Source: a virus
Reading direction: 5' to 3' (one strand)
DNA: 20,744 nucleotides
IMG/VR virus record: IMGVR_UViG_3300006733_000154
Span: 1 to 20,744 of that record
The notes beneath the pieces are model-generated. The model searched no databases. It worked only from the letters and a program-made list of their open reading frames with translations, and was not told where the DNA came from. Shown here in pieces: positions 2,993 through 20,600 of this stretch (positions within the stretch are counted from its first letter, which is position 1; every line of letters begins with the position of its first letter). The position numbers and the translations under genes were made by a program.

Positions 2993-3016
2993 TTTCACAC
3001 CTCCTCAAGTGTGGGG

Positions 3017-3064: not shown

Positions 3065-3069
3065 ACTCC

Positions 3070-3252
3070 TTATTTACGACGCCCGTGCGGGCCCGGGTTC
3101 TGGCTGTTGTACCGCTTTAGAATCTGCGATACCCGTTGCTGGCTGATTCCAAACTCACGTCCTACCTCCTTCAAACTCATCTCAGGGTGCCGTTGATGGT
3201 AGCCAACAACAGCAAGGTTGCGCTGGAGCTTGGTCAAGTCCTCATACTTCAT
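3070..3252 (-). CDS. Small helix-turn-helix DNA-binding protein, 60 aa (sigma-70 region 4-like)
   Basis: Residues 26-46 (SLKEVGREFGISQQRVSQIL and following) form a helix-turn-helix. It closely resembles the -35-recognising HTH of sigma-70 region 4 and the many small phage regulators built on it. The basic tail ends GRRK. At 60 residues it is little more than the HTH. It is the first gene after a consensus promoter whose predicted start point coincides with the ATG, so its mRNA may be leaderless. An AGGAG at 3265-3269 lies 12 bases upstream and could serve as a ribosome binding site only on a longer read-through transcript. It may regulate its own promoter or the early/late switch. Direct repeats around the -35 box are candidate binding sites. 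Confidence 0.8.
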   Translation of the reverse strand: MKYEDLTKLQRNLAVVGYHQRHPEMSLKEVGREFGISQQRVSQILKRYNSQNPGPHGRRK

Positions 3253-3258
3253 GGTTGG

Positions 3259-3287
3259 ATTATACTCCTAGTACACCTACTTGTCAA
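3259..3287 (-). promoter_or_regulatory. Consensus sigma-70 promoter (TTGACA-17-TATAAT) for the early operon
   Basis: On the minus strand TTGACA (3287-3282) and TATAAT (3264-3259) are both exact consensus hexamers, separated by exactly 17 bases. Six bases (CCAACC) separate the -10 box from the ATG at 3252. Transcription should therefore start at or within a base or two of the start codon. This is the only strong promoter I see. It sits at the boundary between the structural genes and the small-gene operon. Confidence 0.85.
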
Positions 3288-3297
3288 CCCCCTAGTA
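3267..3297 (-). promoter_or_regulatory. Direct repeat TACTAGG flanking the -35 box (possible operator)
   Basis: TACTAGG occurs at 3291-3297, just upstream of the -35 box, and again at 3267-3273 inside the spacer. Both copies are in the same orientation, 24 bp apart. Each contains the palindrome CTAG and is followed by further purines (GGGG and AG). A repressor or activator could use the pair. The adjacent helix-turn-helix protein is an obvious candidate. Short repeats of this length can arise by chance. Confidence 0.35.
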
Positions 3298-3347
3298 TAT
3301 ATGAATGCCACACGCCGCCCCAGGAGAGCGAAACCGGGACGGACGTG

Positions 3348-3371
3348 CGGTGCTGAGAGGAGGCAGCGCCG
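3348..3371. other. Short hairpin between SpeD homologue and early promoter
   Basis: Arms of 8 bases (3348-3355 and 3364-3371) enclose an 8-base loop. Read on the plus strand the stem pairs fully with one G-U wobble. On the minus strand, the direction of transcription, it has one C-A mismatch. It lies a few bases past the stop of the SpeD homologue and could mark the end of the late operon, but no T-run follows. Confidence 0.25.
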
Positions 3372-3376
3372 GACCT

Positions 3377-3721
3377 CTATGGCAATGGGGGAAAGCTGCG
3401 GTCAAGCAGGTTCTTGTACCTGCACTCCCATATCCCGAAGCGGTCACGAATGAAGTTCTGCGCTCCCACAACCCTGAACGGTTTGCAAGAGTAGATTTCC
3501 ATTGAGAGGTAGGGGGGGCGGCCATCGAGATTGTAGTAATGGCCGAACACATGGGACTCAGCAATCATCTGAAAGAAGGAAGGTCCGAGGGCATCAAACT
3601 CCTGCCAGCAGAAGGGGCCAACCGGCGTCATGTCGACGGTCCGTATCAGTTCAAGGGTAAGCTGCTCGGCTTCGTCTTTGGTCAGTGTCCGCTTCACATA
3701 GCCATCGTACATGAGGTGCAT
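3377..3721 (-). CDS. speD: S-adenosylmethionine decarboxylase (SpeD) family pyruvoyl enzyme homologue, 114 aa
   Basis: The segment MIAESHVFGH matches the self-cleavage site of AdoMetDC proenzymes. Glu55-Ser56 would be the cleavage bond, with Ser56 becoming the pyruvoyl group, His61 at +5 and Cys79 in IYSC at +23. In the bacterial Thermotoga-type enzyme the corresponding Ser, His and Cys are at 0, +5 and +20, so the processing and catalytic residues are kept with a three-residue insertion. The TWPE segment that follows the His in bacterial SpeD is replaced by YYNLDG, so the substrate pocket may differ. SpeD homologues acting on ornithine or arginine instead of AdoMet are known. The chosen ATG at 3721 gives the usual length and has AGGGGG ten bases upstream. 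A GTG at 3781 would add 20 residues and overlap the upstream gene. It is the last gene before the early promoter. It is likely a polyamine or SAM-related accessory gene of the phage. Confidence 0.75.
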   Translation of the reverse strand: MHLMYDGYVKRTLTKDEAEQLTLELIRTVDMTPVGPFCWQEFDALGPSFFQMIAESHVFGHYYNLDGRPPYLSMEIYSCKPFRVVGAQNFIRDRFGIWECRYKNLLDRSFPPLP

Positions 3722-3756
3722 GGCCTCGATTCCCCCTTCGCTGAAATGGCTCCATT

Positions 3757-4248
3757 CTATCCACCACCCGATGCCTGCCACAGTCTGATGATTTCCCAGA
3801 TGAGCAAGCCGACCGCCCCTATGATGCCCGTCGGTATGCCATACTTCTTGGCAGCCTGTTTCGCCTTGTTCACCTCAGCGTCCTGCTTACCTCTCCTATA
3901 GCCGTTGAGTCTCGACACCTTCTCCTCTACACGCCGAATCTGGTGCTCATGTTCCCCACAAGGCAACTCCTTGATAGCATTGAACACGCGATCGAATATC
4001 GGCGGGATACCCAGCGCAGGATTTCCCTGAAAATTGTGCTCAAGTTCCGTCACCACGTTATCAACCTTCCCCAACTTGATAGTGCTGGCGGCGACTTCCT
4101 TTACCAGGGTGTCCACGACGACGGCCACTGTATCCACCTTCTCAAGTTGTACATTGGCGCCGGCCACTTCCGTGACCAACCTATCAACTATAGCTGCGAC
4201 CGTCCCAAGTTGCTCCATGACCTCAGCGTTATCGTTCTTTTCCGTCAT
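3757..4248 (-). CDS. Coiled-coil protein with one C-terminal transmembrane helix (holin/XhlA-like), 163 aa
   Basis: Residues 12-70 are heptad-rich and internally repetitive (VDRLVTEVAG..., VDTLVKEVAA..., VDNVVTELEH). This is followed by a charged stretch (HEHQIRRVEEKVSRLNG, 100-116), then a Lys/Arg-rich linker and one hydrophobic segment at about 138-156 (GIPTGIIGAVGLLIWEII). A coiled coil ending in a single C-terminal membrane helix resembles XhlA-type haemolysin/holin accessory proteins and some phage lysis proteins. Its position after the tail gene also fits a lysis module, but no endolysin is seen nearby. The start at 4248 overlaps the previous stop as ATGA. An anchored tail or ejection accessory protein is an alternative. 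Confidence 0.65.
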   Translation of the reverse strand: MTEKNDNAEVMEQLGTVAAIVDRLVTEVAGANVQLEKVDTVAVVVDTLVKEVAASTIKLGKVDNVVTELEHNFQGNPALGIPPIFDRVFNAIKELPCGEHEHQIRRVEEKVSRLNGYRRGKQDAEVNKAKQAAKKYGIPTGIIGAVGLLIWEIIRLWQASGGG

Positions 4249-4460: not shown

Positions 4461-7400
4461 CTAGAAAGCATGAATAACGTGCCAAGCCCCGTTCTTGTAG
4501 AACTCTATGTCGTCGTCGTCCTCCATGTAACAGATCATGCCCTCGTATGGAGTCCCAGGTTTGGCGGCGTCGTTAGCGTAGCACGGGATAGCAAAGGAAT
4601 CGGAGGTTCGCAAATCGGCAAAGCCCGATACCTCAATCTTGCCCGTGACATAGGTATCAGCCTCTAGGTTTATATCATCCCCGGGGTTGAGGGTGATGTC
4701 ACCTGTGCCTGAACTATTGAGTCTGAGGTCTTTATTCGATTGCGCCGTAATGTCGAGATAAGTAGCCGCCCCGTACATACCGCCAATGAGCGTCGCCCCC
4801 GAATAGAACTTGAGCACATCGCCATAGATTTTGATCCCATCTGCGTCTATGAGAACGCTACCGGCTCCCGCCGTAATCTGGCCGCTGGAGTTTACGCTGC
4901 ACTGTACCGTCCCTGCCTTCGTCGCTCTCGTAGTCAGGGCGTTATTTGTGCCGTAGATGTTGATTCCGTGGCTGGCGTCAATCTCTACACCGCTCTCGTT
5001 GTACCATTCGCCATCAACAACAGTGGCTGAGGTGAGTTTGATATGACCGCTGCTCAGGTCGGTCGCTAATATACGCTTATATGTCGTGCCATCTGGTAAA
5101 TCATCAACGTCCTTGCCATTGAAATACTTGTTGGTGCTACCCTCAGCAATGTTGTCAATGCTGCCGGTACAGGTAGACAGTAATATATGCCCGGACGATA
5201 TGTCCGTCTTGGCTACCCTTCCATAACTCGTCCCATCAGCAATATCGTCCAAATCCCCAACTGTTTCAGACAATATGATATGCCCGGACGATATGTCCGT
5301 CTTGGCTACCCTTCCATAACTCGTCCCATCAGCAATATCGTCCAAATCCCCAACTGTTTCAGACAATATGATATGCCCCGCGGATATATCTGTGAGCAGT
5401 ACACGGCCGTATGTCGTCCCATCTGATACAGCGTCCAGATCGCCGGTCACCTTCCCTTGTGCTGCTACGGCTGCCAGGCTGATCTCGCCAGCCTTGACAT
5501 GCGCGGCCAGTATGGAATCCGCAGCAATGATAGTCGCATTGATAATTGGTTCTTTGCTCTTGTTCGGCAGAACGATTGCCGACTGCCCGTTCGTACCCTC
5601 TACGACAACCGCCAGCAATCCCTTGTTCGAAGCTGCGGCGTCGTTATAATTCGATGACCATTGAATTGTAGCGTTGCCTTCCAGAAAATATGCGAAGTCT
5701 GTCCCGCTCACATCATCCTTGCTGCCCGCGTCGACGGCCTGCGAACTGCCATCTGCGAAGTAAATCGTACCAGCCCCCCACGACACGCTATTGCCATCAA
5801 CCGAAGTCCAAACAATATCGACATTGAATGGCTGCCCGGCTCTCCGTAGTAAGTCGGGCGATATCGTGTGCATTTTTATGATGTTCGGGGCGGTCATGCC
5901 CGAGCCCAATGCCAGTTGGTCAATGAACGCCTCAACATCATCCGTGTTGAGTTTGCGTATCAGGCCACCGATACGCAGCTCCATCAGAAACGGGTCACGG
6001 CTCTCGGGGTAATAGCGCCAGTAGAGACCGCCCACTCTGCCAGTGGCCCCGGTGTTGCCCCTGTTGTCCGTGACGGTCACCTTGTCGTAGACCTCTTGCA
6101 GATAGTTGGGCGTCGTGATAAGGAAACCTGTCTCAGTCTGACTCTGCGCCCTCTCGACCATGGACTGAGCAATCCACTCACAATCAGCGTCAGATCCCAC
6201 CAACCCGAATGGTTCCTGCATGGCCCAGATTCCCATACTGGAATCCCACGCCGGCGATGTGCTGGCGTAGTCGCCCGAGTATGCCGCTGTGTAGACCTCG
6301 ACCTTCATTTTCTTGAAGTACAGACTGCGGGAGTGCGACTTGCGGAAGTAGTGAGCCGCATCGCTAAGATAGGTGTAGTCTACCGAGTCCCCATCCTGGC
6401 AATACTTGAGATGCACCTTCGTCGTGCGCGGGACCAGGACGCAGCGGGTGACCCTCTCCATGGTGTAGTCAAGGAACTCCCTGCCGGTCTGCTTGCTCTC
6501 CCAGGTGGCTTGAGGTTCCCACGAATCGTTGTCTACCTTGCCATCGAGGGTGCCGATGTCAGCGCCGAGGTCGCTGCCGGCCTTCTCCGCCACGAAGTCA
6601 ATGATCTCCTCCATGTTGTAGTTCTGATACGTGGCGTCATCCTGGTTGAAGCGATAGCCCAAATGAGCATCGCAGGTATAGCGCCCGATCTTGTCCGGCG
6701 CCCCCTCTGCGTGAATCACGTAGACGTCCTGCGCCCCGGGCCTGCGGTCTGATATAAAGTCCTGAGCATAACACCAGACATAAGGGCGATAGACTACCTC
6801 AATCCCATTGGCGCAGTCAGCACCAATGCCGAGTCTAATCTGAGCACCCTGCAAGGCCTGCGAGTCGTAGAGGCTGCCCTGGTTGTTGAGCGTGATGGTG
6901 ACGTTGATGCCCCACGGCTCCTCGTTCCCTTCTATACTCTTAATGCGGTAGTCGTTCGTTGCTACTACGAGGGGATAACTGTAGGTGTCGAAGTACAGGT
7001 CGCCAGTACCAAGCGCAGACCACGAACCGCCGCCATCAGTGGAGACCAATGCTGCACCATTGGCATAGCCACCACTAGCATTGTATTTGAGGCCGATAGA
7101 GTTATTGACATCACCATTGAGGCACCTCAAGACCAGCGCGTACTTGGTGCCCGAGGTCAGACTTGCATAGGACAACGGTATCGTGTACTCCACTCCCGTT
7201 GAGTTCGTAGTGAAGTCATCGGAATTGATACTGCCTGAACAAAGGTCTGGTCCAGTCGGCAGGGAACTGCCATCAACAGCCGTGATGGACGCTGTGAGTT
7301 TCCCAGGGCTACCGCCCCGATAAGCCTTGATCTTCACGATACCCAGGATTTGATTGGCCTGCGGCGTGAAGGTCTGCGCCCTCCATTGATCCCCATAGAC

Positions 7401-7523
7401 AGACGTGGTGCCTGTTGGCGAGGTTGTAAAGTTCTCGCGCTGAGTCTCCGCGCCGCCGAGAATATGCACGAACGGCGAATGGCTAGCTTTCTGCGCTGCC
7501 TCTAGGGTTGCATTGGTCCTCAT
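4461..7523 (-). CDS. Large tail/baseplate protein with fibre-like repeats, 1020 aa
   Basis: Residues about 35-185 resemble a beta-sandwich 'choice-of-anchor R' module (WRAQTFTP, GGSPGKLTASI, SGTKYALVLR, GGSWSALG), often found in carbohydrate- or surface-binding proteins. About 190-540 resembles a phage tail/baseplate hub-type protein (EEPWGINVTITLNNQGS, VTVTDNRGNTGATGRVGGLYW). About 545-660 is beta-rich. About 665-850 holds repeats built on DGTxYGRVxxTDISxGHIxLS, two of them identical. The C-terminus (YEGMICYMEDDDDIEFYKNG) looks like the distal end of a tail fibre. The protein therefore probably joins a structural anchor to a receptor-binding fibre. The ATG at 7523 is chosen because it forms an ATGA with the preceding stop. 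An in-frame start at 7547 would add eight residues and overlap that gene more. No depolymerase active site is evident. Confidence 0.8.
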   Translation of the reverse strand: MRTNATLEAAQKASHSPFVHILGGAETQRENFTTSPTGTTSVYGDQWRAQTFTPQANQILGIVKIKAYRGGSPGKLTASITAVDGSSLPTGPDLCSGSINSDDFTTNSTGVEYTIPLSYASLTSGTKYALVLRCLNGDVNNSIGLKYNASGGYANGAALVSTDGGGSWSALGTGDLYFDTYSYPLVVATNDYRIKSIEGNEEPWGINVTITLNNQGSLYDSQALQGAQIRLGIGADCANGIEVVYRPYVWCYAQDFISDRRPGAQDVYVIHAEGAPDKIGRYTCDAHLGYRFNQDDATYQNYNMEEIIDFVAEKAGSDLGADIGTLDGKVDNDSWEPQATWESKQTGREFLDYTMERVTRCVLVPRTTKVHLKYCQDGDSVDYTYLSDAAHYFRKSHSRSLYFKKMKVEVYTAAYSGDYASTSPAWDSSMGIWAMQEPFGLVGSDADCEWIAQSMVERAQSQTETGFLITTPNYLQEVYDKVTVTDNRGNTGATGRVGGLYWRYYPESRDPFLMELRIGGLIRKLNTDDVEAFIDQLALGSGMTAPNIIKMHTISPDLLRRAGQPFNVDIVWTSVDGNSVSWGAGTIYFADGSSQAVDAGSKDDVSGTDFAYFLEGNATIQWSSNYNDAAASNKGLLAVVVEGTNGQSAIVLPNKSKEPIINATIIAADSILAAHVKAGEISLAAVAAQGKVTGDLDAVSDGTTYGRVLLTDISAGHIILSETVGDLDDIADGTSYGRVAKTDISSGHIILSETVGDLDDIADGTSYGRVAKTDISSGHILLSTCTGSIDNIAEGSTNKYFNGKDVDDLPDGTTYKRILATDLSSGHIKLTSATVVDGEWYNESGVEIDASHGINIYGTNNALTTRATKAGTVQCSVNSSGQITAGAGSVLIDADGIKIYGDVLKFYSGATLIGGMYGAATYLDITAQSNKDLRLNSSGTGDITLNPGDDINLEADTYVTGKIEVSGFADLRTSDSFAIPCYANDAAKPGTPYEGMICYMEDDDDIEFYKNGAWHVIHAF
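5187..5372. repeat. Perfect 93-bp tandem duplication inside the tail protein gene
   Basis: Bases 5187-5279 and 5280-5372 are identical, and identity runs a few bases past each edge (about 101 bp in total). Each unit encodes 31 residues (GHIILSETVGDLDDIADGTS and following). More diverged copies lie on both sides: one reads SDGTTYGRVLLTDISAG and another PDGTTYKRILATDLSSG. Complete nucleotide identity beside diverged copies points to a recent duplication or ongoing copy-number change. Confidence 0.95.
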
Positions 7524-8524
7524 TGCTCCTCGCTGTACTCCTCCCAAATGCGTGGGCGCGCGATACCCCTCAGTTCACGCTCAGCATCAACCAGTTTCCT
7601 CCGGCCCCATGCCTCGTACTTGTCGGTGAGAATGGTGCTCTGAATCTGAGCACGTATGCGGTTCATGTAGGTGTTTGCCTGCCCCAAAGCGGCCCCAGCC
7701 TCAGACAGCCGCCCCGACCCCTGCGCCTGCCATACTCGCGGCGGTGAGTCCTCCTGTAGGTAGCCCTGCGCCTCTCTGAGCTTGCCAGCAGCGACGTTCA
7801 ACTCGCCGCCCGCAAAGTTCACATAGTCCGACTCAGGGATACCGATGTTGACCTGATTGGTGAAACTGCGGGCCGAACCGAGGTCTGCCGTGGCTCGGTC
7901 AATGATGGTCGCCATAGCCGCAACCGCCGTGGCCGCATTGAGCCGGTCCGTACCGATGATCGAGCCACCAGTCGCAAAGGCGGTGGCCGCCTCAAGTATG
8001 GTGTTTTGAGCCTTCAGTATGGCTGTGCTCAGGTCCGCAAACATCAAGTCCGCTGCCTGCGTGTTCAGGTTTGCCATAGGCTGAGAGATTGCCAGCCTTG
8101 CCGCCGCCAACTGAATCAAGGCCTGCTCCTCGTCTGGTCTCATGCTGTTTGTGGCACCCGAGAGCGTGTGGGGGACGGCGAAATAGACGAACGCCGTGTC
8201 CCCAGTGGAGGGCGTGAAGCTGATATTGACCTCCACGCTGTCCAGGTAATTGTCATCGAAGTTGCGGTACCGCCGCGGGTCTTTGTCGATCTTGTACTCA
8301 ATGCGGTCAACCCATAGCAGGTTGGTCAGGGTAGAACAGTCGAGTTTGTGGGCTGTACCGGCGAAGGTCACGGTTGCAAACGTGATATTCGGAGAGTACC
8401 TGCTCAGTTCCACCAGGGACCGGGCGATCTGCCTCTGTATCTGCGCCGTCCCAAACACGGCAGTTGCCGACACGTCCTGAAGTTCCGCCAAGATCAGGTC
8501 AATTACCGATGCTTCTGCTACCAT
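7520..8524 (-). CDS. Head-tail adaptor-like structural protein, 334 aa
   Basis: The N-terminal part (DLILAELQDVSATAVFGTAQIQRQIARSLVELSRYSPN read as helices, about residues 8-46) is like the helical start of gp6-type head-tail connectors, which pack under the portal. A beta-rich segment with FVYFAVPHTL follows at about 95-120. The rest (about 130-334) is an Ala/Gln-rich helical region without clear motifs, ending in a charged tail (WEEYSEEQ). Its place after the coat gene and before the tail protein supports a connector or tail-completion role. The ATG at 8524 has GGAGG five bases upstream, and the stop forms ATGA with the tail gene. The family assignment is tentative. Confidence 0.6.
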   Translation of the reverse strand: MVAEASVIDLILAELQDVSATAVFGTAQIQRQIARSLVELSRYSPNITFATVTFAGTAHKLDCSTLTNLLWVDRIEYKIDKDPRRYRNFDDNYLDSVEVNISFTPSTGDTAFVYFAVPHTLSGATNSMRPDEEQALIQLAAARLAISQPMANLNTQAADLMFADLSTAILKAQNTILEAATAFATGGSIIGTDRLNAATAVAAMATIIDRATADLGSARSFTNQVNIGIPESDYVNFAGGELNVAAGKLREAQGYLQEDSPPRVWQAQGSGRLSEAGAALGQANTYMNRIRAQIQSTILTDKYEAWGRRKLVDAERELRGIARPRIWEEYSEEQ

Positions 8525-8700: not shown

Positions 8701-9882
8701 CTATACAAACTTGCCGAACCCTACGAAACTGGCTAGCTGCTCCCAGTGTAACTCGTCGGTTCTGACGTAGTGCATACCGTAGGCATAGTGCTCATACGGC
8801 ACCTCTTTCTTGTGCCCCTTCTCCGTCACTATGCGGTCGAACTCGGTGAGAGGAAATGGCACAGCGTGGCACCACCCGAATCTATCAGGGCGTACCGTGC
8901 CAATCCATTGTTTTGTCTCTCGCACGGTGTCCCAACTCTCCCCGGGCAAGCCAATCACGAAACTGCACTCGCTCCCGATGCCGGCCGCCCTCGTCATTTC
9001 ACAAGCCCTGGTCGCCTCCTCCACCGTGGTTCCCTTTTTCATTCGGTCGAGCATTTCCTGACTGCCGGACTCAATACCGTAAAAGATGTTCCACACCCCA
9101 GCCTCGCAAGCCAAGTTCAGGAACTCCTCGGTTATCAGTTTCTCGTTGACCCTGCAACAGATTCGGAAGAGCATGTCGTCGTTCAGTCCACGGTCAACGA
9201 TACCCTGCAGAATCTCACCCGCCCACTTCAGGTTCAGGTTGAACGTATCATCCTGCAGAAACACCTCGGCGGCCCCGTACTTATCCCTCAGTATTTGGAT
9301 TTCGTCAAGAACGAGCTGCGGGTTGCGGTATCGTACCTGCCTGCCCCACATGACAGGGGTATTGCAGAAAATGCACTCGCTCGGGCATCCACGGGATGCC
9401 ATAATGCACATCGACGGCACCGCCCCAACACCCGAAATGCCACAGAACTTGTTGAGCTCCACCAGTTCGTAATCCAGCATCGGGATATCGTCAATGCTGT
9501 TTACCCACGGCCTCTCTCCGAGGATCTCCAACCACTTGTTCTCACCCTCTCCCACGACTACTGCATCCGCCCCGTTGTCCCAGACGCAGGCATGAGGGCC
9601 GCCGACCACCAGGCGTGTCCCCTTCCCGTCCCGGTGCAGGTAATTGCTGATCTCTTTGGCGTGCTTGACCTGGAAGGTGTTGACGGTGAGCCCGACCAAC
9701 TCTGGCCTGTAATCCCTAAATACGTCCTTGAAGTCAACGGAGTGGTCCAGGTCCATGTGCCACACCTGCACCTCATGGCCGTGCATCCGGGCCAGCGTGC
9801 CCAAGATGAGGAGGGCCGTACTAGGTGCCTCGCAATACGGCTGATACCAGTTCATTCGAGGTTGAACTAAGAGGATTCGCAT
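8701..9882 (-). CDS. B12-binding-type radical SAM enzyme, 393 aa
   Basis: The radical SAM [4Fe-4S] motif is SRGCPSECIFC, with Cys166, Cys170 and Cys173 (CxxxCxxC). The N-terminal 150 residues have the Rossmann-like layout of cobalamin-binding domains in this class (PSTALLILGTLARMHGHEV, LVVGGPHA, VVVGEGE at 108-114). No DxHxxG cobalamin ligand motif is visible, as is common in this class. Further family marks are FLQDDTFN (208-215), YGIESGS (268-274) and FVIGLPGE (308-315). Members use the 5'-deoxyadenosyl radical and often methylcobalamin to methylate unreactive carbon or phosphorus, or to rearrange rings. The substrate cannot be told from sequence. It is the last gene of a cassette with a glycosyltransferase and methyltransferases, overlapping the upstream methyltransferase gene by 16 bases. 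A sugar or glycan substrate is therefore plausible. It is intact, with no sign of decay. Confidence 0.85.
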   Translation of the reverse strand: MRILLVQPRMNWYQPYCEAPSTALLILGTLARMHGHEVQVWHMDLDHSVDFKDVFRDYRPELVGLTVNTFQVKHAKEISNYLHRDGKGTRLVVGGPHACVWDNGADAVVVGEGENKWLEILGERPWVNSIDDIPMLDYELVELNKFCGISGVGAVPSMCIMASRGCPSECIFCNTPVMWGRQVRYRNPQLVLDEIQILRDKYGAAEVFLQDDTFNLNLKWAGEILQGIVDRGLNDDMLFRICCRVNEKLITEEFLNLACEAGVWNIFYGIESGSQEMLDRMKKGTTVEEATRACEMTRAAGIGSECSFVIGLPGESWDTVRETKQWIGTVRPDRFGWCHAVPFPLTEFDRIVTEKGHKKEVPYEHYAYGMHYVRTDELHWEQLASFVGFGKFV

Positions 9883-10595
9883 GGCCTCACCTTCTGCGCC
9901 AACACATAGAGGTGCGTGCCTGTGTAGTACAGTTCGTCGCCATGGCCGATCATCTCCTGCGTTTGCATGAACTCGGACAATACGGCCTGGTGGTCCGAAA
10001 CCTTGTCATTGTGCAGCAACGCCGTGTATATGTTCGGGACGTCACCCGTCTTGCGCCTTGCAGCAAATCCCCAGTCCGCCAGTTTCAGAAGCAGGGCAAA
10101 GGGCGTGTAGCATCGAATGTGGAGCGAACCGAAGGGCGGCACGTTGAAACCATTGGGGGTGGTAAGGAACAAATGCCCGCTTGTCTGCAATACTCGGTTG
10201 ATCTCAGAGAGTAGCGCATCGTCGTTCGGGACGTGCTCGATAACCTCACGGCAAAGCACAAGGTCGAAGCTATGCGTCTTGAATGGAAGTTGGCAGCCGT
10301 CCCCTACCATGTCCACGTAGTCGCTGTGTACGACGTCCAACACGGTCGCATGTGCCCAGCACATACGCTGAATCAAGGCAGCCTCCGGCCACTCTCCGCC
10401 GCCAACGCACAGCACATGCAGGTCGGCTATGCCGAAATCCCAGAGTAATTTACTGGCGATGTCATTCCGGGTCTCGTTCATCCACAGGTCCGCTTGATAG
10501 TTGGATCTGCTCTTGTCCTTCCACCACTTCTGGTGCATCCCCTCATGGAGCCGGTAGAGCTGGAGGTATCGCTTGTCGACCCGAGCCGTAGTCAT
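9867..10595 (-). CDS. SAM-dependent class I methyltransferase, 242 aa
   Basis: The SAM-binding motif I is VLCVGGGE (about 61-68). Motif II/III elements follow (DMVGDGCQLPF), then SFDLVLCREVIEHVPNDDAL and GHLFLTTPNG. This is the Methyltransf_11 layout typical of small-molecule and sugar methyltransferases. Motif I is GGG rather than the common GCG. The start is taken as the ATG at 10595, which overlaps the previous stop as ATGA. Another in-frame start at 10616 would add seven residues. The C-terminal HIRCYTPFALLLKLADWGF segment is a usual post-core extension in sugar-linked members. Its target is unknown, but its neighbours suggest a glycan or its carrier. Confidence 0.85.
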   Translation of the reverse strand: MTTARVDKRYLQLYRLHEGMHQKWWKDKSRSNYQADLWMNETRNDIASKLLWDFGIADLHVLCVGGGEWPEAALIQRMCWAHATVLDVVHSDYVDMVGDGCQLPFKTHSFDLVLCREVIEHVPNDDALLSEINRVLQTSGHLFLTTPNGFNVPPFGSLHIRCYTPFALLLKLADWGFAARRKTGDVPNIYTALLHNDKVSDHQAVLSEFMQTQEMIGHGDELYYTGTHLYVLAQKVRPCESS

Positions 10596-11119
10596 CGCAC
10601 CCTCCTGAGTACCCACTCGTCGGTTTGCATATCAACGACTTCAAAGCGAGGAGAGCGATCAAGGAACCTGTCGACCTCGGCTTTGACGATATGGTAGTCG
10701 TGGCCTGCCAGAAGCCCCCCCACTTTCACCAGGCTGCGCCATGCTTCCAGGTCATCTGCTATAGCGTCGGCGTTGTGGTTGGCGTCGATGTATACCAGAT
10801 CAAGCGAGATGCCCCGGTCCACAAGGCACACCGAAGCCAGCATAGAGTGCATGTTCAGCCATTCCACCCTGCCGTTGTACGGTTCCAACACTAGGGAAAC
10901 CATGGTCTGTCTCGCTATGTTTAACTCCTCCTGAGTCACCGGGTCATAGACGTCCTGATATGCCTTGTAAGGGTCAATGAGATATAGCTTGACTATGTCC
11001 AGCCCCTCCAGCATTGCCAGAGCGTTCTCGCCCAGATAGACACCCACCTCTGCCACAGTGAGAGGAGGTGCGAGTAACTCCCTCGCCAGTTCCCCGCTTC
11101 TACGCATTGCCGCTACCAT
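10592..11119 (-). CDS. SAM-dependent methyltransferase (Methyltransf_24-like), 175 aa
   Basis: The SAM-binding loop AEVGVYLGENAL (23-34) is followed by LYLIDPYKAY and by DLVYIDANHNADAIADDLEA (about 107-126). The latter is the acidic and IDAxH signature of the Methyltransf_24 group, whose members methylate sugars, macrolides and other small molecules. The strand GGLLAGHDYH (134-143) completes the core. At 175 residues it is a minimal domain. The ATG at 11119 overlaps the glycosyltransferase gene stop by seven bases; a second Met at residue 5 could also be used. It is coupled to the next methyltransferase by ATGA, so both are probably made together. Confidence 0.8.
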   Translation of the reverse strand: MVAAMRRSGELARELLAPPLTVAEVGVYLGENALAMLEGLDIVKLYLIDPYKAYQDVYDPVTQEELNIARQTMVSLVLEPYNGRVEWLNMHSMLASVCLVDRGISLDLVYIDANHNADAIADDLEAWRSLVKVGGLLAGHDYHIVKAEVDRFLDRSPRFEVVDMQTDEWVLRRVR

Positions 11120-12696
11120 GTCACGCAGCCGTCCCCGCTCGTCAGCGTCGTGTATGAGACTCCCCTCACTATCCTATGATCGGGGTCATGCTTGAAAAAG
11201 GGATTCTGCGGCGTTGAGAAAATCATCACGCCGTGCTTGCCGACACGCTTTGCCTCGGCTACCACCTTCTCCGGGCTGATGCAATGCTCCAGCACCTCGC
11301 AACACCAGACAAACCCGAACTCGTTGTCCTTGAACGGCAACTCATGGGCGTCATGCACCAGAATCTCCTGGTTCACGCCGTTGCCGTTCTCGTTCCTCTT
11401 GTCCACGGGGTAATACTTGCCCATCCCTTCGAGGTACGGCTTATAGGGAGTAGTCACGCCACAGCCCAGGTCCAGCACCTTGCGGGGTTGGCACGTCTTG
11501 GGAATGAACAGCAGTTTCCATTCCTGTACGCCTTCGAGATTGGTGCGGGGCGCTTTCAATTTCTTCTCAATACGGTCAAGAACGGGAACCCACAGTTCGG
11601 GAAACACTACATTGTCATCGAACTGCAAAGCAAAGTCCCGTGCCTTGTCCTTCTCGATTTGTATGCTCCCGTCCTTCCAGGCCGCAAACGCCTTCTCCAG
11701 TTGCTCTAGAATATCGTCTGGGTCGCACTCAAACTGCCACGACGCCTGCGACGTCCAGACACGGTGCTTGTCGTACACCGGCACATACCAGCCGCCGCCG
11801 AGCAACTCCGCATGGCTGGTGCATTTGGTGATGATGTTCGGGACACCACAAGCCTGCGACTCGACAATCGGCATACCGAACCCCTCACCTTTTGAGGGCA
11901 GCAAGTGGACGTCCATGACATTGTACGTGCGGGCCATGGTCTCTTGCTCAATGCCGATTTCCAGGCTGTCCTGCGAGGGGAAGAATGTCGTGCCGCCTAT
12001 GCCCAAAGCAAGCCGCAGGGCGTTCAGGTCAATGCCCCTCTGGTCAAATACCTTCGTGTGGCAATACATCACGGTCTCGCCCTTGTGCCGGTGCTCGAAC
12101 TCCGCAAATGCCTTGAAGCTGGCCGTCCAGTTTTTCCTCTCGTTGTGGTTTGTGGCTACGCAGCCGACGACGAACTTCTTGGTCCAGTTGTACTTGTCCC
12201 GCGCCTCGTCTCTCCACATTTGATTCGGCTGAAACAGATTGCAGTTGATCGCCGGTGGGATGTACTCGGCATTGATGCCGATCTCCTGCAGCTTCTCAAC
12301 GCCAAAGCGGGACTGCGTAATCGCCTGGATGATTGCCGGGTGCTTCTGAAGGATGTCCGTGACTATCTTGGGCGGCGGGTCATGGTCGATGGGCAACCAC
12401 GGCACCCACGGAATATCAAGGGGCATACCACCCAGCACCCAAACATCGACCAGGGTGAGGAATATGTCTGCATTGAAGTCCTTGAAATAGGCCGGGGCTT
12501 GCGAAACCCCCCAGTCGTCGGTGTTGTTGGGATATATGGGGACTTCGCCCCAATCCACCTTTGTGCCCTTCAAGCCCCAGAAGGCGAGCACGGCTACATC
12601 GTGCCCCAGGCGGCGGAGCCAATGGACACACGATGCCGTTGTCATTCCGTAGCCAGTCGGGGCAAACGGGATATTGCTACTCCATAAGATTCTCAT
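11113..12696 (-). CDS. GT4-type glycosyltransferase fused to a SAM-dependent methyltransferase, 527 aa
   Basis: Residues 1-390 form a GT-B, GT4-like glycosyltransferase. It has the N-terminal donor-side start MRILWSSNIPFAPTGYG, a central VVGCVATNHNERKNW strand and the EGFGMPIVESQACGVP signature, with the E-x7-E pair at Glu271 and Glu279 that binds the nucleotide-sugar ribose and phosphate. From about residue 400 there is a separate methyltransferase: KVLDLGCGVTTPY (SAM motif I, about 402-414), then HDAHELPFKDNEFGFVWCCE, VLEHCISPEK and GVMIFSTPQNP. The two domains follow one another without a frame break, so this is a true fusion. It suggests that a sugar is transferred and then, or at the same time, methylated. 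The gene starts 77 bases after the coat gene, behind a stem-loop. No signal peptide or membrane segment is seen, so it acts in the cytoplasm. Confidence 0.85.
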   Translation of the reverse strand: MRILWSSNIPFAPTGYGMTTASCVHWLRRLGHDVAVLAFWGLKGTKVDWGEVPIYPNNTDDWGVSQAPAYFKDFNADIFLTLVDVWVLGGMPLDIPWVPWLPIDHDPPPKIVTDILQKHPAIIQAITQSRFGVEKLQEIGINAEYIPPAINCNLFQPNQMWRDEARDKYNWTKKFVVGCVATNHNERKNWTASFKAFAEFEHRHKGETVMYCHTKVFDQRGIDLNALRLALGIGGTTFFPSQDSLEIGIEQETMARTYNVMDVHLLPSKGEGFGMPIVESQACGVPNIITKCTSHAELLGGGWYVPVYDKHRVWTSQASWQFECDPDDILEQLEKAFAAWKDGSIQIEKDKARDFALQFDDNVVFPELWVPVLDRIEKKLKAPRTNLEGVQEWKLLFIPKTCQPRKVLDLGCGVTTPYKPYLEGMGKYYPVDKRNENGNGVNQEILVHDAHELPFKDNEFGFVWCCEVLEHCISPEKVVAEAKRVGKHGVMIFSTPQNPFFKHDPDHRIVRGVSYTTLTSGDGCVTW

Positions 12697-12735
12697 GACG
12701 CTCTCTGGTTACTCTCCTCTCACTTGGTTCCCAGT

Positions 12736-12764
12736 GGGGAGGGGTAGGCTGATTACCCCTCCCC
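12736..12764. terminator. Perfect 11-bp stem-loop after the coat gene
   Basis: GGGGAGGGGTA (12736-12746) and TACCCCTCCCC (12754-12764) pair perfectly around a 7-base loop, between the coat gene stop and the glycosyltransferase gene. A GC-rich stem at this place often reduces read-through after a highly expressed coat gene, or protects its mRNA end. No T-run follows on either strand, so it is at best a partial terminator. Confidence 0.5.
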
Positions 12765-12773
12765 CTGAGTAGC

Positions 12774-13883
12774 TTACCGGGTGTCGTTGAACCGTGCAGC
12801 AAGCAACTGGTCAAGAACTTTCACGCCCAGCAGGATGTCGAGCGAGATTAGGTTTTTCTTGGTCCTCTGCTCGTACCCGTACACCACGCGGGCGCTTATG
12901 TTCCTGAAGTTCATGACGCTCGCCTGCGCTCCGCCCAGCGGTGCCTCCAGTGGTGCCGTTACCAGAGCGATTGCGTTCTTGTGGAACGCCATGTTTGCCC
13001 TGCCAGACGGCATGATGGTGACCACGCTGTTATTGGCGAACGGCCCTGTCACAGCAGGCGCGACACCTACAGTGACGGTCCCGCCAGTGGACGCCGTGGC
13101 AGCCGTGTTCGACACGAACCACTCGTCGTAGCCGGTGACCTTGATGTTGCTGCCCACGGGAATTACAGCCGAAGCCGTTATCCCGTCTATCGCCAGTGCG
13201 GTTGCAGCAGCAGCCACCGTTGCGTCGATAGCACCCGTCGAGTCGGCGCAGGTTATGGTGTGGGTCTGGATGTTCTGGTCCATATAGGTATCGAACCCGA
13301 GCACCTGCCCCAGCTCCGCCTTTCGGAGTGCTTGTCCGCCGTCTCCCCGCTTATCTGCGTTCAGGAACGCGTCGAGGCTCATGTATCCACTCTTGGTCAT
13401 CGGATGCAGGACAAGCCTGCGGTCCATCAGAGGAACCTTCTGCGCGTCCATTACCGCCTCAAGTCCTGCCACGTCCCCGACTGCCGGGGTCGAACTGACC
13501 TCGTAGTGGCCCCCGATCTCGGTGTACTTGTCTGCGAGCTGTCTGTCAATCGCCTGAGCGTGCCCACGCATCGCAGGTTGAATCAACTGTTCGCTGAAGT
13601 CCTTCATAGAAAGAGTCAGCTCCTGGCTGGTGATCTCAACCGTGATGTCGAGGTGGGTGTCCAGTACGACGTCGACCGATGACTCCGTGAGGGTCTGCGT
13701 GTTGACAGTCCCGCTTACGGTGCCCGAGGTCAGGGTTGCAGGCTTGCGGATTGACACAGTGCTGCCCACCTTCTTGAACTCCTTGCTGAAGTCACGGTGA
13801 ACCAACCCCGCCAACACCATGTTGTTCTCGAGCACGATTAGTGACTCGGCTGCAATCATGTGCGGGGTTATCAGTGTCGCCAT
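12774..13883 (-). CDS. Major coat protein, P22-type HK97 fold, 369 aa
   Basis: The N-terminus (ITPHMIAAESLIVLENNMVL, then HRDFSKEFKKVGSTVSIRKP at 29-48) is the P22 coat-family signature (H-R-D-x-S-K-E-F-x-x-V-G-x-T-V-x-I-R-K-P). So is ITSQELTLSMKDFSEQLIQP (85-104), which matches the family's TSKELTLSIEDFSERYIQP pattern. About residues 217-295 form a Gly/Thr/Val-rich beta insertion that may be the counterpart of the inserted domain in P22-like coats. The C-terminal LLGVKVLDQLLAARFN is typical of the fold's end. The gene lies directly after the scaffolding protein, with AGGAG seven bases before the ATG at 13883. It should be the most abundant protein of the virion. Confidence 0.9.
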   Translation of the reverse strand: MATLITPHMIAAESLIVLENNMVLAGLVHRDFSKEFKKVGSTVSIRKPATLTSGTVSGTVNTQTLTESSVDVVLDTHLDITVEITSQELTLSMKDFSEQLIQPAMRGHAQAIDRQLADKYTEIGGHYEVSSTPAVGDVAGLEAVMDAQKVPLMDRRLVLHPMTKSGYMSLDAFLNADKRGDGGQALRKAELGQVLGFDTYMDQNIQTHTITCADSTGAIDATVAAAATALAIDGITASAVIPVGSNIKVTGYDEWFVSNTAATASTGGTVTVGVAPAVTGPFANNSVVTIMPSGRANMAFHKNAIALVTAPLEAPLGGAQASVMNFRNISARVVYGYEQRTKKNLISLDILLGVKVLDQLLAARFNDTR

Positions 13884-13902: not shown

Positions 13903-14610
13903 TCATTTGAACCGCGCTTTGACGGACGGATGCTCGGCATACTCCTCAGCCGTCATACGCTCGATTTGCTCCGGCGTCAATTCCGCGGTGGCTCCCCTGC
14001 CGTCCATGGAGTCAGGTCGGCTCGCTGGTGGTGGCTCTGGAGGTGGCTCGCCTGCTGGTGGCTGCCCTGTTCGTGGCAACTTCTGAGCGAGCGACTCCAT
14101 TGACTCGAAGGTAGAACCTCCGTGGGACAACAAGACGGCCTGAGCGACACCATACTGAGAAGCAAGGTTCGCAGCCCACGATTGGGACTGCAAGGTGTTG
14201 AACTGCGTTTGAGCGGTCTGAAGTGCTGCTTGCTCGCTTCGCAACGCCGCTAACTGTGTATCGGCGTCCGCCATCATCTGACGAGCCTCTTGCTTGAGCC
14301 TGTATGCAGCCAGTCCGTCATCGTTCCCCTGTAGCCCTTCCATCTCTCTGGCGTCGATCTGGCCCTGGAGTGCCCTTTGCTGTTGGGTTAGACTGGAAAT
14401 CTGAGATTCCAGCGTGCTTGTCCTCGTCTGGGACTCTTGCGCTACCCGCCGAGCATCAGCCAACTCCCGACCGTGGGCGGTCTTGGCATCCTGCACCATC
14501 TTATCAACCTGAGCCTGTGTGTACGACTGGGGCGGGGTACTTTGTCCGGGATCAGGCGGGGTTGCCTCGAATTGAGGGGTGCCCTCCTGAGTGCCTTCCG
14601 TTTCACCCAT
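13903..14610 (-). CDS. Capsid scaffolding protein, 235 aa
   Basis: The composition is acidic, Gln- and Ala-rich and strongly helical, with no cysteine. The N-terminal 30 residues are a Pro/Thr/Gln-rich disordered tail. About 31-150 is a long coiled coil (LESQISSLTQQQRALQGQ; LRSEQAALQTAQTQFNTLQS). A second Pro-rich linker follows (GEPPPEPPPAS, about 185-195). The C-terminus is basic (EHPSVKARFK). Its place directly upstream of the coat gene, its size and its coiled coil fit the scaffolding proteins of P22- and phi29-like phages, whose basic C-terminus contacts the coat. GGGAGG lies eight bases before the ATG at 14610. No protease domain is visible. Confidence 0.8.
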   Translation of the reverse strand: MGETEGTQEGTPQFEATPPDPGQSTPPQSYTQAQVDKMVQDAKTAHGRELADARRVAQESQTRTSTLESQISSLTQQQRALQGQIDAREMEGLQGNDDGLAAYRLKQEARQMMADADTQLAALRSEQAALQTAQTQFNTLQSQSWAANLASQYGVAQAVLLSHGGSTFESMESLAQKLPRTGQPPAGEPPPEPPPASRPDSMDGRGATAELTPEQIERMTAEEYAEHPSVKARFK

Positions 14611-14665: not shown

Positions 14666-17600
14666 TCACCTCACTACCTCCTCACCCACATAGTACAACT
14701 CACCAGGACGCACGCCCGGTGGCCGTAGCAGAATATCCCACTCAGGTTCCTTCCAGTGGCCGAGCCTCACCATTTCGTCAGCAAGCCCGACATGGCCGGT
14801 CAGATACTTCACCCTCTCCCTCTCGCTGTCAAAGTCCTGCATATAGTAGTCCACGTACTCAGGGATAAACCGTTCGGCTACCCCCTTCTGATAAGCGTCC
14901 CGGCGCCGGCGTGCCTCGGCATACTCGGGGTTCTCGATCAGGTACGCGTCTCGGTCACCGCCCGGTTTCAGTTCCTCGTATGTGTCATCTTGCTGGCGGT
15001 AGTCGACATTGATACGCATGACCTCTATGTTGTGGTCGGGCTCGTCAAGCCCCGCCCAGTCCAGATAGGCCGGATGTTCCATGCGCCAGAGTATTGCCTC
15101 GGAACTTCCGGGGGAGTATTGGTCAATCAAATCCTGGTACTCAAAGACGCTCTCAGCGACGTTTTTAGGGGGTATACCCTCCACAAAGGATGACGGGACG
15201 TCCATCTCGTCTAGCATGGAACTGGCCTTATTGTAGCCCTCCAGCGTTGACAATTTCGGGCCACCCCAGATCGACAACAATGCGTTTTGCTCAGGGTTGG
15301 CCTTCAGCCAGTCCTCGCGGCGATTGACCGTCAACTCCGGGTGCTCCTCAAGGAAAGCCTCCTGCTCCGCTTCCGGCAAGTCGTGGTACTCCTGAATCAA
15401 CTCAACGTCCCTGCGGCTCAGAGAAGTGTCCGCGTAGACGTCGGTGATCTCAGATAGCGGTGTGGACGGGAAGCTGTTGTATATCTCCCTGGCCTTTTCC
15501 TTCTCCGCCCAGGACTTCACTATTGGGCTATCCGTATCACCTATCACCTCGTCTGGTGTCATGCCCGAGAATATGCTACGCAGTTCGGTACTCAAGTCGT
15601 TCATACCGTAAATGTCGGGTTCCTCGGTACTCCAGATCAGATCCTCCTCGTCAACGGGCTCGCCCAAGCGTGCCACGGCATCGGCAGCCTTTTCCGTCGG
15701 TGTTGGCGGCTGCGTGGTGGCCCCGAATATGGCATGCTGCAGCGCCTCAGCCAATGACCTGTCAACCTCATACTGGCCGCCGTTAAGTCGGTATTGCTCA
15801 TCAATCATGCCCCGTATCTTTCGCATCGCTTCCTTGTCGACATGCTTCCTGTCTGTAGCAGAGTCAATGGCCTGCACGGTGATTTTGTAGAACGGCAAGC
15901 CCTGCTTCGCTGTTCTGCTTATCATGTCGGGTAATTTGCCCATAGCATATTCGTTCCCTTGACTGGCATCCACAATGTAGCCAACAGTGTCACCAATCAT
16001 AGTGAAGGACGCAAGCAGCAAACCGCCCGGGCTGTACTGTAGGATATTGAGGGGGTTATAAGGGTTGTATCTTTTGCCCGTCATGAGCCCGAACAGCCAA
16101 CCCGCCATCATTCCAGCCACAATGATGTATGCTACATTCTTTGCTGCCTCGTATCGCTCTTTTGCTGGCACATCCGCCTTCGGGTCGAGCTTGCCCAACT
16201 GAAGCAACATACGCTCGGCCCAGGACCGTTGAAATACGAGGATGTTCCCCATGATCTCACCTGTCGGCCCGTGCTCGGCCGGTGCCCGTTGCGCCCTGTC
16301 ATAGAGGAACTGCACGTTGTTCACATGCTGCTGCGTGACGTAGCGGAGAAACGCCTCTTTGCCACTGACGGGCTCCATTCCCTCAATGCCGTAGTCAACC
16401 GATTCCCTACCGAGCAATTCAAGCGCATGGACCTGCTGCAGCTTCGTCAATTCATTGGTGCCGGAGCGTTCGAGGAGTCTATGCACGTCCCCGTCCCTCT
16501 CGAACTCGGTCACCGCCCGGTCAACCCGGTTGCTCCTCAGCCAGAAGGTCCATAGCCTGTTTACCTTGTCCGACCACGGGAAGGCGCTAGTGCGGTTTGC
16601 CATCCTCAATAGTTTATCCATCGGAGCCGCCGACGTGCTGACGTTCAAGCCCAGCTTGCGGAAGAAGTACAACGCATCATTAAGGTCAAGAGGCTTGACT
16701 CCCCGCATGAGGTAGTCCTGAACAAGCCCCTTGTCCTGCGCCACGAATATCTCAAACCATAGCCGTCTCTCGGGGTTCACACGCCTATTACGGCGGTCAA
16801 ACGTCAACACCGTGTCGGGGTTGAAAGCCAGATTCTGATGTAAGTTCCTGACTGCCATATATGGTTGCCAGAATGTTGCCGCCGCAAACTGCGAATAAAG
16901 TCGTTGCGCCGCCCAGTGGAATAAGCCCCCGTGCTCACGGTAGCCCTTCATGATATTCAAGTCCCGACTCAGTACGCCGGCGATATGCTGCGGATTCTCG
17001 AACTTCCCCGCCTCCTCCTCGAACGTGCGGGCAAAGGTACGGACTTGCGGCTGCACATGAATCAAGCCGTAAAGCTGGCGCATGTACGAGCGATAGCGAT
17101 CCAGAATGTTCCTGTCCTCTTGCGTGAACTCGTTGCCCTGGCGTGTCTTGATATGGCCCTTCCCGAACGTGGTGACCTTCGGCTTGAACAAGTAGAGGTG
17201 AGGCTTGACTATGGATAGCGGACTGTAGCCGCTCCGAATCACGCCCCAGTCCTGTGTGTCAAGAAACTCACGAAGTGCAGTATCGCCCTTTGACTCAAAG
17301 ATGTCGACGGCACGCCGGAGCGCCTGTTTCGGTGCGCTCGGGATCTCGTTCTGTATGAGCTGTACGTCCCCGCCGTGCTCGGCAAAGGCGTTCTTGAACC
17401 TGGCGAATCTCACATCGTTCTGAAACTGAAACAGTTGGCGCTCCAGTTCCTCAGCGACAGCCACCTCCGCATCCGTCATGTCGGTCGGTGATTTGACTCC
17501 GCTCGCTTTATGCTTGGTCGCAATGTAGTCCTCGACCCGGCGCATGGCCGCATCGTTGCCCGCGATATCCTTGAAGTCATCCTTGCCTGCGACGTCCTCC

Positions 17601-20600
17601 AGCCTGTTCAAAAGGTGCTGCTCGTACTGTCTGCGGGCGAGGTGGGTCATGTTAATCATGTTCCATTGCTTCGCCAACTTCGGCCCCAACTTCTCCACGT
17701 AGTAGCGCATGGACCGCAACTCGCTCCCGTAGCCGATGCGAACCGGCTTGCCCTCCAGTTCTGGCTCGGGCGTCATTTCTCCCTGGATGATATTGCGCTC
17801 CCTGGCTATGGCGGGGTGGGCTGCAAGGCCGTCCTCTGTGGCGATCTCCTCAGCCATCCAATCGGCTTCGTCGTTCATAGCCCGAATCAGCGCCTTGCCG
17901 TCAGACTCCGTGATGTAGCGTTCGCCGGAGATATAGCCCTCCACCCTGAGATTGAGTGCAGCTTTCAGCCGCTCGAAACTCTCCTCGGTCAGCTTTTTCT
18001 CTCTGAGCAGGGTCGCCTTCAGCAGTTCAATCTTGTGCTCAGTCTTGCGGGTGATTACCCGGTGCCCCTTGATCGTCTTGGGCCGTGCTTCTCTGACGGC
18101 TTCGAGGGTGGCCTGTAGTTGTTCCTGCGTCATCTTGGTGAGGTGAACCGACTTGCCGTGCTTGCGAAATAGATTTTCATAGTGGACCTTCGGCAGCCCC
18201 TTGAAGCTAACGGCGGCCATAATGGTTGAACGCAGCTTCTTGACCTCGGGGGTCGGTTCGGCAGGCGGGGGCTTCTCCGCCTTGGGCTTCTTGCCTTTCT
18301 TCGCAGGTTCGGCGGCGGGTTCCTCGACAACCGTCTCAGCCACCACTTCAGCCTCCTCGACGGCGGCCTCAGCCACGGGTTCGGTAATTGGCATCGGTTC
18401 AGACGTGCGTTGTTGGCTGATAACCCGTCCTATTTCTCGCGCTGTCCACTTCGACCCGCCCTCTGTAATAACCGATTTCGGGTTTTTCTTAATCACTTTC
18501 AGTGGGACGTTGCCTCCCACGTCAATGGAATCGCCAACTTCAATGCTATCCAGTTGCACTTGCTCATATTCTGCGACATGCTTCGCAGTTTCAATACGTT
18601 GCGGTGCGCGTCTCTGATACTCGATTTGACCCTCAACAGACCTCAGTTCCTCAGTAAGCCTCACCACTTCGCTAGCGCGGTTAATCCTGCGCTCCATTTG
18701 TTGCTCAACCTTCTTCATCCTCTTGCCTGGAACCCCGCTGGCTCCTGTTACATACGTCCCTGGCATATCGGTTCTGTCTGATTGCTCAATAGCTTTGTTC
18801 AGTTTCTCCAGGCGTGTCCTTATCCTGTCCCGCTTTTGTAGCAATCTCCAGTCCACCGGGCCTTCCTCGACCACGACCTCGGGGGTCTCGCTCGGCTCCA
18901 CGGGCACCTCGACGGGGGGAGGCCCTATCACCACTCCAGTAGTGCCCAGTGGGACTACGGGGGCTGGCGGTAGTTTCGTCTCTGCCTTCTGCTGCAACTC
19001 GGGGTAGTCCGCCAGCACTTCGGCGGCTTTGTGATTTAGAGATTTCAGGTCAACAGTTTCGGCTGTTGGGATATTACCAACTCTTTGAACCATATCGGCA
19101 TCAGGCACAACAACCACACCATCATCATAGACGGTAGCATCTTGTGAACTGACATAGGCCACAATGATCCCACCACCAGGACTGGCATAAGCAGCAGCGT
19201 CTTGCGGGCGCTTGTAGAAATAGACACCAGGCCCATGCACACCTTGCTCGGCTTTGACTAACTCAGCCATTCCTCTTGGGCCTACACCACGAAATACTGG
19301 AATCTGAGGGAGATTACGATACTCCTCCCTAGTCATCTCCCACGGCTGCTTGGCGGGCGGGGTAATCCCCGCCTCAACCTCTGCCCGCTCAATCGCTCCT
19401 TCCAGCCCAGCCACAAACTTGCCCATACGCTCAGATTTTGCCTTCTCCGCAGTACGCCGTGCCTTCTGGAACTGCCGAATCGCTGCGTCCGTGTCACCCA
19501 CCCCCTCCGCTTCAACCGCTGGCGGGGGGACCGCAGCGGCGGCTTCCTGCACACCCTCAAGTCCCGCAGCCCTTTTGACCAACTCCGCCTTTTGCTCGAT
19601 TGACACAGGCATCGCAACGACCTTGACCTCATCACCGACCATGAACGTAATCGGCCCAGATGCCGTGTTGACCAAGATCGTCGCATCAGGGTGGTGCTTC
19701 AAGGCCAGGGAGAGAATGTCCAGATTGAGGCGTGCCAACACGCTGCCGTTCCACAGATACGCGCTTGGGGGATAGCCCCGCTCTATCGCCACAACTCGGG
19801 CAGGCGTACCCCTGTTCTCCTCACTCGGTATCAATTGCTGATAGTTGGGGAACTTCTCCTTGTTCGCTTCTATCTGCTGCTTTGTCCACTCTTTCACCTC
19901 AGCAGTGGCTTCCGCTAGACTCAGGTCGGGGCGTAGCCGCATACGGGTTTTGATTTCCCTCTGCTCAATCTTTTTGAGTGCATCATTGAGCAGTTCGTCA
20001 GCCACGTTCGGGTCAAGGTACATGACAAACCCATCAGTCGCGACGTGCGCCGTAACGCCGCCATAGAACAGTTGCGGCCTCATTTCCACCTGGTCCTCTA
20101 GATTTAACCCCTTGCTCGGATTTGACGCCTTCTTGAGAATGAAATCCATGTCTTGGGTAGGAACCACGCCCTCGTAGTCCTCAAGCACTCGCATGGTCTG
20201 TGAACGGTTCAACGCAGCAAACGGCTGCCCGAACTTGTGCTCGGCAATCCGCCCCAACTCTTGCTGTGCGTCTGCTGGCATCTCCGCCCGCACCCCCCTC
20301 ACCGCCTGCACCGTCACGGGCTCTATCCCCGATATCTCCCCCAACTCCGCCCTCTGCCGCTCGAACTCTATGTTCCATGCCGCCGCATCCGCCTCGTTCT
20401 TCGCCCTGATCTGCCCTGCCGTCCACTCGATATTGGCCCGCTTGGTTACGTTCTCCACTATGGCCGCCGCTTCCTCGTTCTCCCCTACCAACTCGTCCAT
20501 AGCTAGCAGTTTGGCGTTCTTCACTGTCATGCCGGTCCTGACGTGGTTGGCAACCTTCCTGACAAACTCCATGTTCAACTCGGGGTTGAAGTTCCTCTCG

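Follow-up and report, generated by a model that had tools for sequence, protein, structure and literature searches.

The 20.7-kb linear IMG/VR virus record IMGVR_UViG_3300006733_000154 (20,744 nucleotides; hereafter the window, meaning the whole stretch of DNA analysed) encodes, between the genes for its major coat protein and a presumed head-tail adaptor, a cassette of four overlapping genes whose core is a GT4 glycosyltransferase fused to an S-adenosylmethionine (SAM) methyltransferase. This cassette probably acts late in infection to glycosylate the virion of the phage that encodes it, the coat being the most likely target and a tail protein a possible one. All genes described lie on the minus strand, in the reading order 2024-residue protein, scaffold, P22-type coat, cassette, presumed adaptor and 1028-residue presumed tail protein. 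The features on which the argument turns are:

12774 to 13883, minus strand: P22-type major coat protein, the candidate acceptor (PF11651, 8.6e-38; phrog_283 major head protein, 1e-68)
12730 to 12769, minus strand: strong hairpin without a U-tract, found by folding, between the end of the coat gene and the start of the fusion gene
11113 to 12696, minus strand: GT4-methyltransferase fusion, the core gene (PF13692/PF00534 and PF08241; phrog_2170 glycosyltransferase, 1.6e-34)
10592 to 11119, minus strand: small methyltransferase of Methyltransf_24 type, a rare accessory (PF13578, 5e-12, above cut-off)
9867 to 10616, minus strand: Methyltransf_11-type methyltransferase (PF08241, 1.2e-12), with a likely start at the in-frame ATG at 10595
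8701 to 9882, minus strand: B12-binding-domain radical SAM enzyme (PF02310, 2.8e-13; PF04055, 2.2e-23)
7520 to 8524, minus strand: presumed head-tail adaptor, 3' of the cassette (positional homologues follow the cassette in relatives)

A preliminary description of this DNA had delimited the cassette as 8701-12696, which is exact, and had placed its four overlapping genes between coat and adaptor, with which gene order and Pfam domains agree, the adaptor label being positional. The fusion overlaps the Methyltransf_24 gene by 7 bp and the Methyltransf_11 gene overlaps the radical SAM gene by 16 bp; the ATG at 10595 agrees better with relatives than the GTG at 10616 as the Methyltransf_11 start, and gives a 4-bp overlap with the Methyltransf_24 gene. 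The product of 7520-8524 has no match to any Pfam or PHROG family, and a PHROG scan of its relatives gave a structural match in one of four (the L147 homologue, phrog_399, weak), so that its designation as an adaptor is based on position.

Relatives were gathered from IMG/VR with the coat, radical SAM and fusion proteins as queries, and 43 records, including the window, were tabulated after removal of duplicates. The fusion gene lies directly 3' of the coat gene in all 41 contigs (window included) in which the fusion and sequence upstream of it are both present, usually across a gap of 58-150 bp (541 bp in L103, 213 bp in L126), and an adaptor homologue follows the intervening slot wherever the contig extends that far and the homologue is recognised. 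Thus the cassette of related phages, which the preliminary description had proposed to check for random placement, is found between coat and adaptor in every readable case. Its placement is not due to chance: GT4 genes are tied to virion structural genes, both in these 41 contigs and in the second coat lineage described below. The records of more remote relatives of the coat (L013-L023, 32-42% identical in the coat) contain no GT4 match, and therefore the cassette is a mark of one clade and not of P22-type coats generally. In four contigs with distant P22-type coats (L063, L078, L080 and L081), a GT4 gene is present but lies upstream of the coat, by 2-3 kb, and not downstream. In L133, about 0.8 kb (2871-3712) splits the fusion gene between residues 100 and 102, possibly as an intron, intein or insertion. 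Streptomyces phage Galactica, the best coat match among named phages, has an annotated methyltransferase after its coat that is Pfam-negative and was not used as evidence.

GT4 homologues (31-34% identical) also occupy the equivalent slot after an unrelated coat in Microcystis phage Mae-JY09 and Pontimonas phage phiPsal1, and they likewise lie between a coat of different type and a putative adaptor in five IMG/VR contigs (L135, L136, L137, L140 and L142), as far as their order can be read. The phiPsal1 coat is HK97-type by Pfam; the 282-residue coat of L135, which has only weak PHROG major-head matches, appears to be of different type from that of the window. As in the window, the homologous GT4 gene of Mae-JY09 and phiPsal1 (34% identity) is flanked by a major capsid gene and a neck or adaptor gene and is accompanied by other sugar genes, but the coat is of another type, the GT4 protein lacks the fused Methyltransf_11 domain, and no member of the radical SAM family was found in either record. 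The partners of GT4 in this lineage include GT2, FkbM, a GNAT acetyltransferase, a methyltransferase and an epimerase, and the fused C-terminal domain has been exchanged for FkbM in L137 and for GT2 in L140. A GT4 gene that stays constant beside the coat while its partners change is as predicted by coat-directed modification. In L138, extra structural-looking genes separate coat and GT4, and L139 does not have the coat-adjacent pattern; near the GT4 gene of L139 (6985-8825) are open reading frames that read like GroES (89 residues) and GroEL (524 residues). Tetrasphaera phage TJE1, which has a distant GT4 gene and sugar genes upstream of its terminase, does not support the pattern.

The fusion protein comprises a GT4 glycosyltransferase (approximately residues 1-390; PF13692, 37.1 bits against a cut-off of 27, 4.5e-9; PF00534, 31.9 bits against 26.4) and a class I SAM methyltransferase (approximately residues 393-527; PF08241, 1.3e-12, above cut-off). 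By its domains, motif and predicted fold, the former is a GT4-type glycosyltransferase of GT-B fold, and all three methyltransferase proteins of the cassette are assigned to the class I SAM methyltransferases by family matches. In an alignment of ten fusions 48-55% identical to that of the window, the E-x7-E motif of GT4 (E271/E279) and the LDxGCG motif of the methyltransferase are invariant, as is the CxxxCxxC motif (C166/C170/C173) in seven homologues of the radical SAM enzyme. The preliminary statement that key motifs are kept thus extends to the homologues, and invariance at 48-57% identity indicates that the cassette genes are under selection. The closest fold in the PDB to an AlphaFold2 model of the fusion (predicted local distance difference test score, pLDDT, 83.7) is the glycosyltransferase B736L of chlorovirus NY2A (3oy2), a GT-B enzyme for which best binding is reported with GDP-mannose (PMC9614988). 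Considered with the Gmd and heptose genes of relatives, this match renders a donor of GDP-manno type plausible. Among PDB sequences, the one that best matches the fused methyltransferase domain is that of a D-glucose O-methyltransferase (6uv6, 3.4e-7).

The two smaller methyltransferases differ in their distribution. The Methyltransf_11 protein has slot homologues 32-38% identical in alignment, and the Methyltransf_24 protein has a relative (26% identical) in the equivalent slot of L098. The product of 8701-9882 belongs, by domains and motif, to the B12-binding radical SAM enzymes (PF02310, 50.2 bits against a cut-off of 32.1; PF04055, 83.7 bits against 29.5). It shares the radical SAM domain with CxxxCxxC, and in several cases the B12-binding domain, with BchE, PhpK and HpnJ and with the solved structures 9ccb, AprD4 (6fd2) and TsrM (6wte), matches that are significant but distant. 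Every NCBIfam family scores far below its cut-off (the best, BchE, 119 bits against 481), so its reaction cannot be read off from these scores. Non-methylating B12-binding radical SAM enzymes have the same domains as methylating ones. Its most likely role would be C-methylation of the sugar or a related radical edit. Candidates from a genome collection were just 24-29% identical and their bacterial gene context was left unused; the AlphaFold2 model was poor (pLDDT 59.6) and was left out of the fold search.

Comparison of relatives indicates that the region between fusion and adaptor is a modular slot. It contains a radical SAM gene in 18 contigs, a Methyltransf_11 gene in 12 (a count that omits copies in L003 and L102), a GDP-mannose 4,6-dehydratase gene (Gmd) in seven, an HddA-like heptose-7-phosphate kinase gene in three and a Methyltransf_24 gene in two, besides genes found in single contigs (a HAD-GmhA fusion, an HldE-like nucleotidyltransferase and a PMI-type cupin); in some contigs the fusion stands alone. 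The Gmd of L124 scores above the NCBI curated cut-off (TIGR01472, 435.9 bits against 415) and the other six were identified through similarity to it, whereas the HddA, GmhA and HldE matches are strong yet fall under curated cut-offs. The four genes of the window, which had been described as a set, are therefore not a conserved unit: the fusion is the core, the Methyltransf_11 and radical SAM genes are common, the Methyltransf_24 gene is rare, and Gmd or heptose genes are alternatives. In every complete member, one methyltransferase is fused to the glycosyltransferase. Since slot genes make activated sugars, they link the locus with the making of glycans and not just with methylation. Gmd and radical SAM genes apparently exclude each other, in too few independent lineages for this to be claimed. 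Open reading frames resembling homing endonucleases also occur in the slot, in L096 (7617-8075, with an HNH_3 match) and, as read from their sequences, in L098 (3691-4233) and L082 (3955-4404).

The intergenic region between coat and fusion (12697-12773) has a minimum free energy of -32.3 and a z-score of -2.6 against dinucleotide shuffles. The corresponding regions of 33 contigs, several of which are closely related and do not count as independent cases, hold comparable hairpins and all fold with low energy (median z -3.3; 28 of the 33 below -2). The hairpin is probably an attenuator or an mRNA-processing barrier that holds enzyme expression under that of the coat.

In the proposed mechanism, the GT4 domain would use a nucleotide sugar to glycosylate an acceptor residue, the candidate donors suggested by the genes of relatives being GDP-mannose or heptose-derived sugars. 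All three methyltransferases, the fused one and the two separate ones, would O-methylate the transferred sugar, and the B12-binding radical SAM enzyme would most likely add a carbon-bound methyl group or make a related radical change on it, while the hairpin 3' of the coat gene would keep the enzymes less abundant than the coat. The benefit may be shielding or altered adsorption. A more specific version, which we offer tentatively and would not yet favour, is that this phage lineage builds a rare capsid sugar, C-methylated (or radical-edited) as well as O-methylated, by means of a B12-dependent radical SAM enzyme, and that the swappable slot also accommodates GDP-6-deoxymannose or heptose genes, so that virion glycans diversify among related phages.

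Virion decoration with a methylated sugar, which the preliminary description preferred among several roles, is the best-supported reading: coat adjacency at a fixed place, the second coat lineage, sugar-nucleotide genes, a viral fold match, a sugar-methyltransferase match and mycobacteriophage precedents all favour it, with acceptor and chemistry as its conjectural parts. Several observations weigh against it. The main weakness is the lack of an obvious acceptor tail on the coat, which compared with cassette-free relatives has no extra Ser/Thr-rich tail or insertion, and in which just a few Ser/Thr columns are clade-specific; as a result, no acceptor site can be named. Among 32 coats of the cassette clade there is neither an added C-terminal tail nor a conserved terminal Ser/Thr, and other acceptors are possible. 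The fold match scores of the fusion lie close together across many GT4 enzymes, and with so small a margin the match to B736L does not fix the donor sugar. According to PMC9614988, the coat N-glycans of NY-2A, the source of B736L, contain no mannose, so that the acceptor may be something other than the coat even in that virus. Genes adjacent to a coat gene can also be accessory and unrelated to virions, and the chemistry proposed here is deduced from genes.

An unlikely but possible explanation is that the cassette alters the surface polysaccharide of the infected host, for instance blocking superinfection or releasing progeny from receptors, and shares the structural operon only for the sake of late expression. 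GT4, GDP-mannose dehydratase and heptose genes commonly serve the synthesis of lipopolysaccharide, capsule or exopolysaccharide, and pelagimyophage glycosyltransferases with radical SAM cassettes in the host-recognition region are interpreted as host-surface modification (PMC7029224). However, a role at the host surface has no need of the fixed coat-adjacent position seen in two unrelated coat lineages, late expression would leave little time for superinfection exclusion, and no membrane glycosyltransferase, flippase or O-antigen modification gene was recognised in any of the slots read.

The two remaining explanations concern other targets of the same enzymes. According to Pyle 2024 (as cited in PMC12619734), glycosyltransferases of phages can hypermodify DNA with a variety of glycans, for which a suitable base is required, and the Methyltransf_24 protein of the window also matches phrog_2675, annotated as a DNA methyltransferase; nevertheless, hypermodification of the phage DNA with a methylated sugar as an evasion of restriction is improbable, considering that the cassette sits among head genes and not replication genes, that ordinary-looking DNA methyltransferase reading frames, as read from their sequences, occur elsewhere in two longer relatives, and that the thymidylate synthase/hydroxymethylase family is represented in none of 19 relative contigs (which are fragments) versus nine of 14 control genomes. 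A search for Tet/JBP-type base oxidation enzymes gave no match in 24, and none in the control genomes either. Also improbable is that glycosylation is a separate step, alongside which the radical SAM enzyme and the methyltransferases act directly on side chains of virion proteins. Methylation of protein and peptide carbons by B12-dependent radical SAM enzymes is known, and models for C-methyltransferases of Mcr glutamine and of ribosomally synthesized and post-translationally modified peptides are among the distant NCBIfam matches of the window enzyme, but those matches are all far under their cut-offs, the fusion of a methyltransferase to the glycosyltransferase is universal among complete members, and in relatives the slot of the radical SAM gene is also filled by sugar-nucleotide genes.

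Virion glycosylation by the phage itself has precedents. Mycobacteriophages carry glycans on the C-termini of capsid and tail-tube proteins (Freeman 2023, as cited in PMC12619734 and PMC11256854). The cluster O phage Corndog has an O-methyltransferase, two glycosyltransferases and a putative N-acetylglucosaminyltransferase between portal and protease, which are proposed to add methyl and glycan groups to the capsid (PMC4351075); hence a set of glycosyl- and methyltransferases among structural genes is less unusual than the preliminary description held. Like the window, Che8, Corndog and their relatives encode their own glycosyltransferases, but the coat-to-adaptor position, the P22-type coat, the GT4-methyltransferase fusion, the B12 radical SAM enzyme and the Gmd and heptose genes of relatives set the window apart, and glycans have been measured in the mycobacteriophages whereas the present system is known from its genes. 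For a Rhodococcus phage, virion glycosylation has been deduced from a glycosyltransferase and a methyltransferase (PMC13313380).

The chloroviruses, whose capsid glycosylation genes include A064R, A061L and A118R of PBCV-1 and B736L of NY-2A (PMC9614988), resemble the window in possessing a virus-encoded glycosyltransferase-methyltransferase fusion, a separate second methyltransferase and a GDP-mannose dehydratase (present in seven relatives of the window), as well as in the fold match to B736L. They differ in being eukaryotic viruses with N-glycans, and the two glycosyltransferase domains of A064R belong to other types, so that its likeness to the fusion of the window, drawn from the same paper, is one of layout and not demonstrated homology; the passages of PMC9614988 consulted mention no B12 radical SAM enzyme. 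A search of the literature, exclusive of most subscription papers, found no description of the present gene combination. Phage virion glycosylation itself is known; what is new here is the coat type and position, the GT4-methyltransferase core, the swappable sugar-gene slot and the B12 radical SAM enzyme.

To our knowledge, glycosylated phage particles have been demonstrated in few phages, mostly mycobacterial. The linkage of such a module to the coat gene in environmental phages of two unrelated coat lineages would point to a wider occurrence of virion glycosylation, with glycans that would diversify by gene swapping at a single site, similar to bacterial surface-antigen loci. The action of a B12 radical SAM enzyme on the virion would, as far as we know, be without precedent among the enzymes of phages. 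If the virion reading is true, a GT4 gene directly after the coat gene would be a simple genomic marker that predicts glycan-bearing phages.

The structural context extends upstream of the coat to:

13903 to 14610, minus strand: scaffolding protein (phrog_206, 2.4e-6, and phrog_1793, 1e-5, both head scaffolding)

Upstream of the scaffold, 14666-20740 (minus strand) encodes the 2024-residue protein, which has no Pfam or PHROG match and of which only the C-terminal part has relatives in other contigs, at the corresponding position. An Rfam scan of the window gave no matches. The gene of the 1028-residue tail protein contains a perfect 93-bp tandem repeat (5185-5378, 2.1 copies) that encodes repeated modules of 31 residues. 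A truncated gene for an SbcC-like ATPase (2-1456, minus strand) lies at the edge of the window. The window also has a reading frame resembling S-adenosylmethionine decarboxylase (3377-3781, minus strand; PF02675, 35 bits against a cut-off of 25) that keeps the ESH sequence, and a relative 31% identical to it is situated within the cassette slot of L010 (12937-13248).

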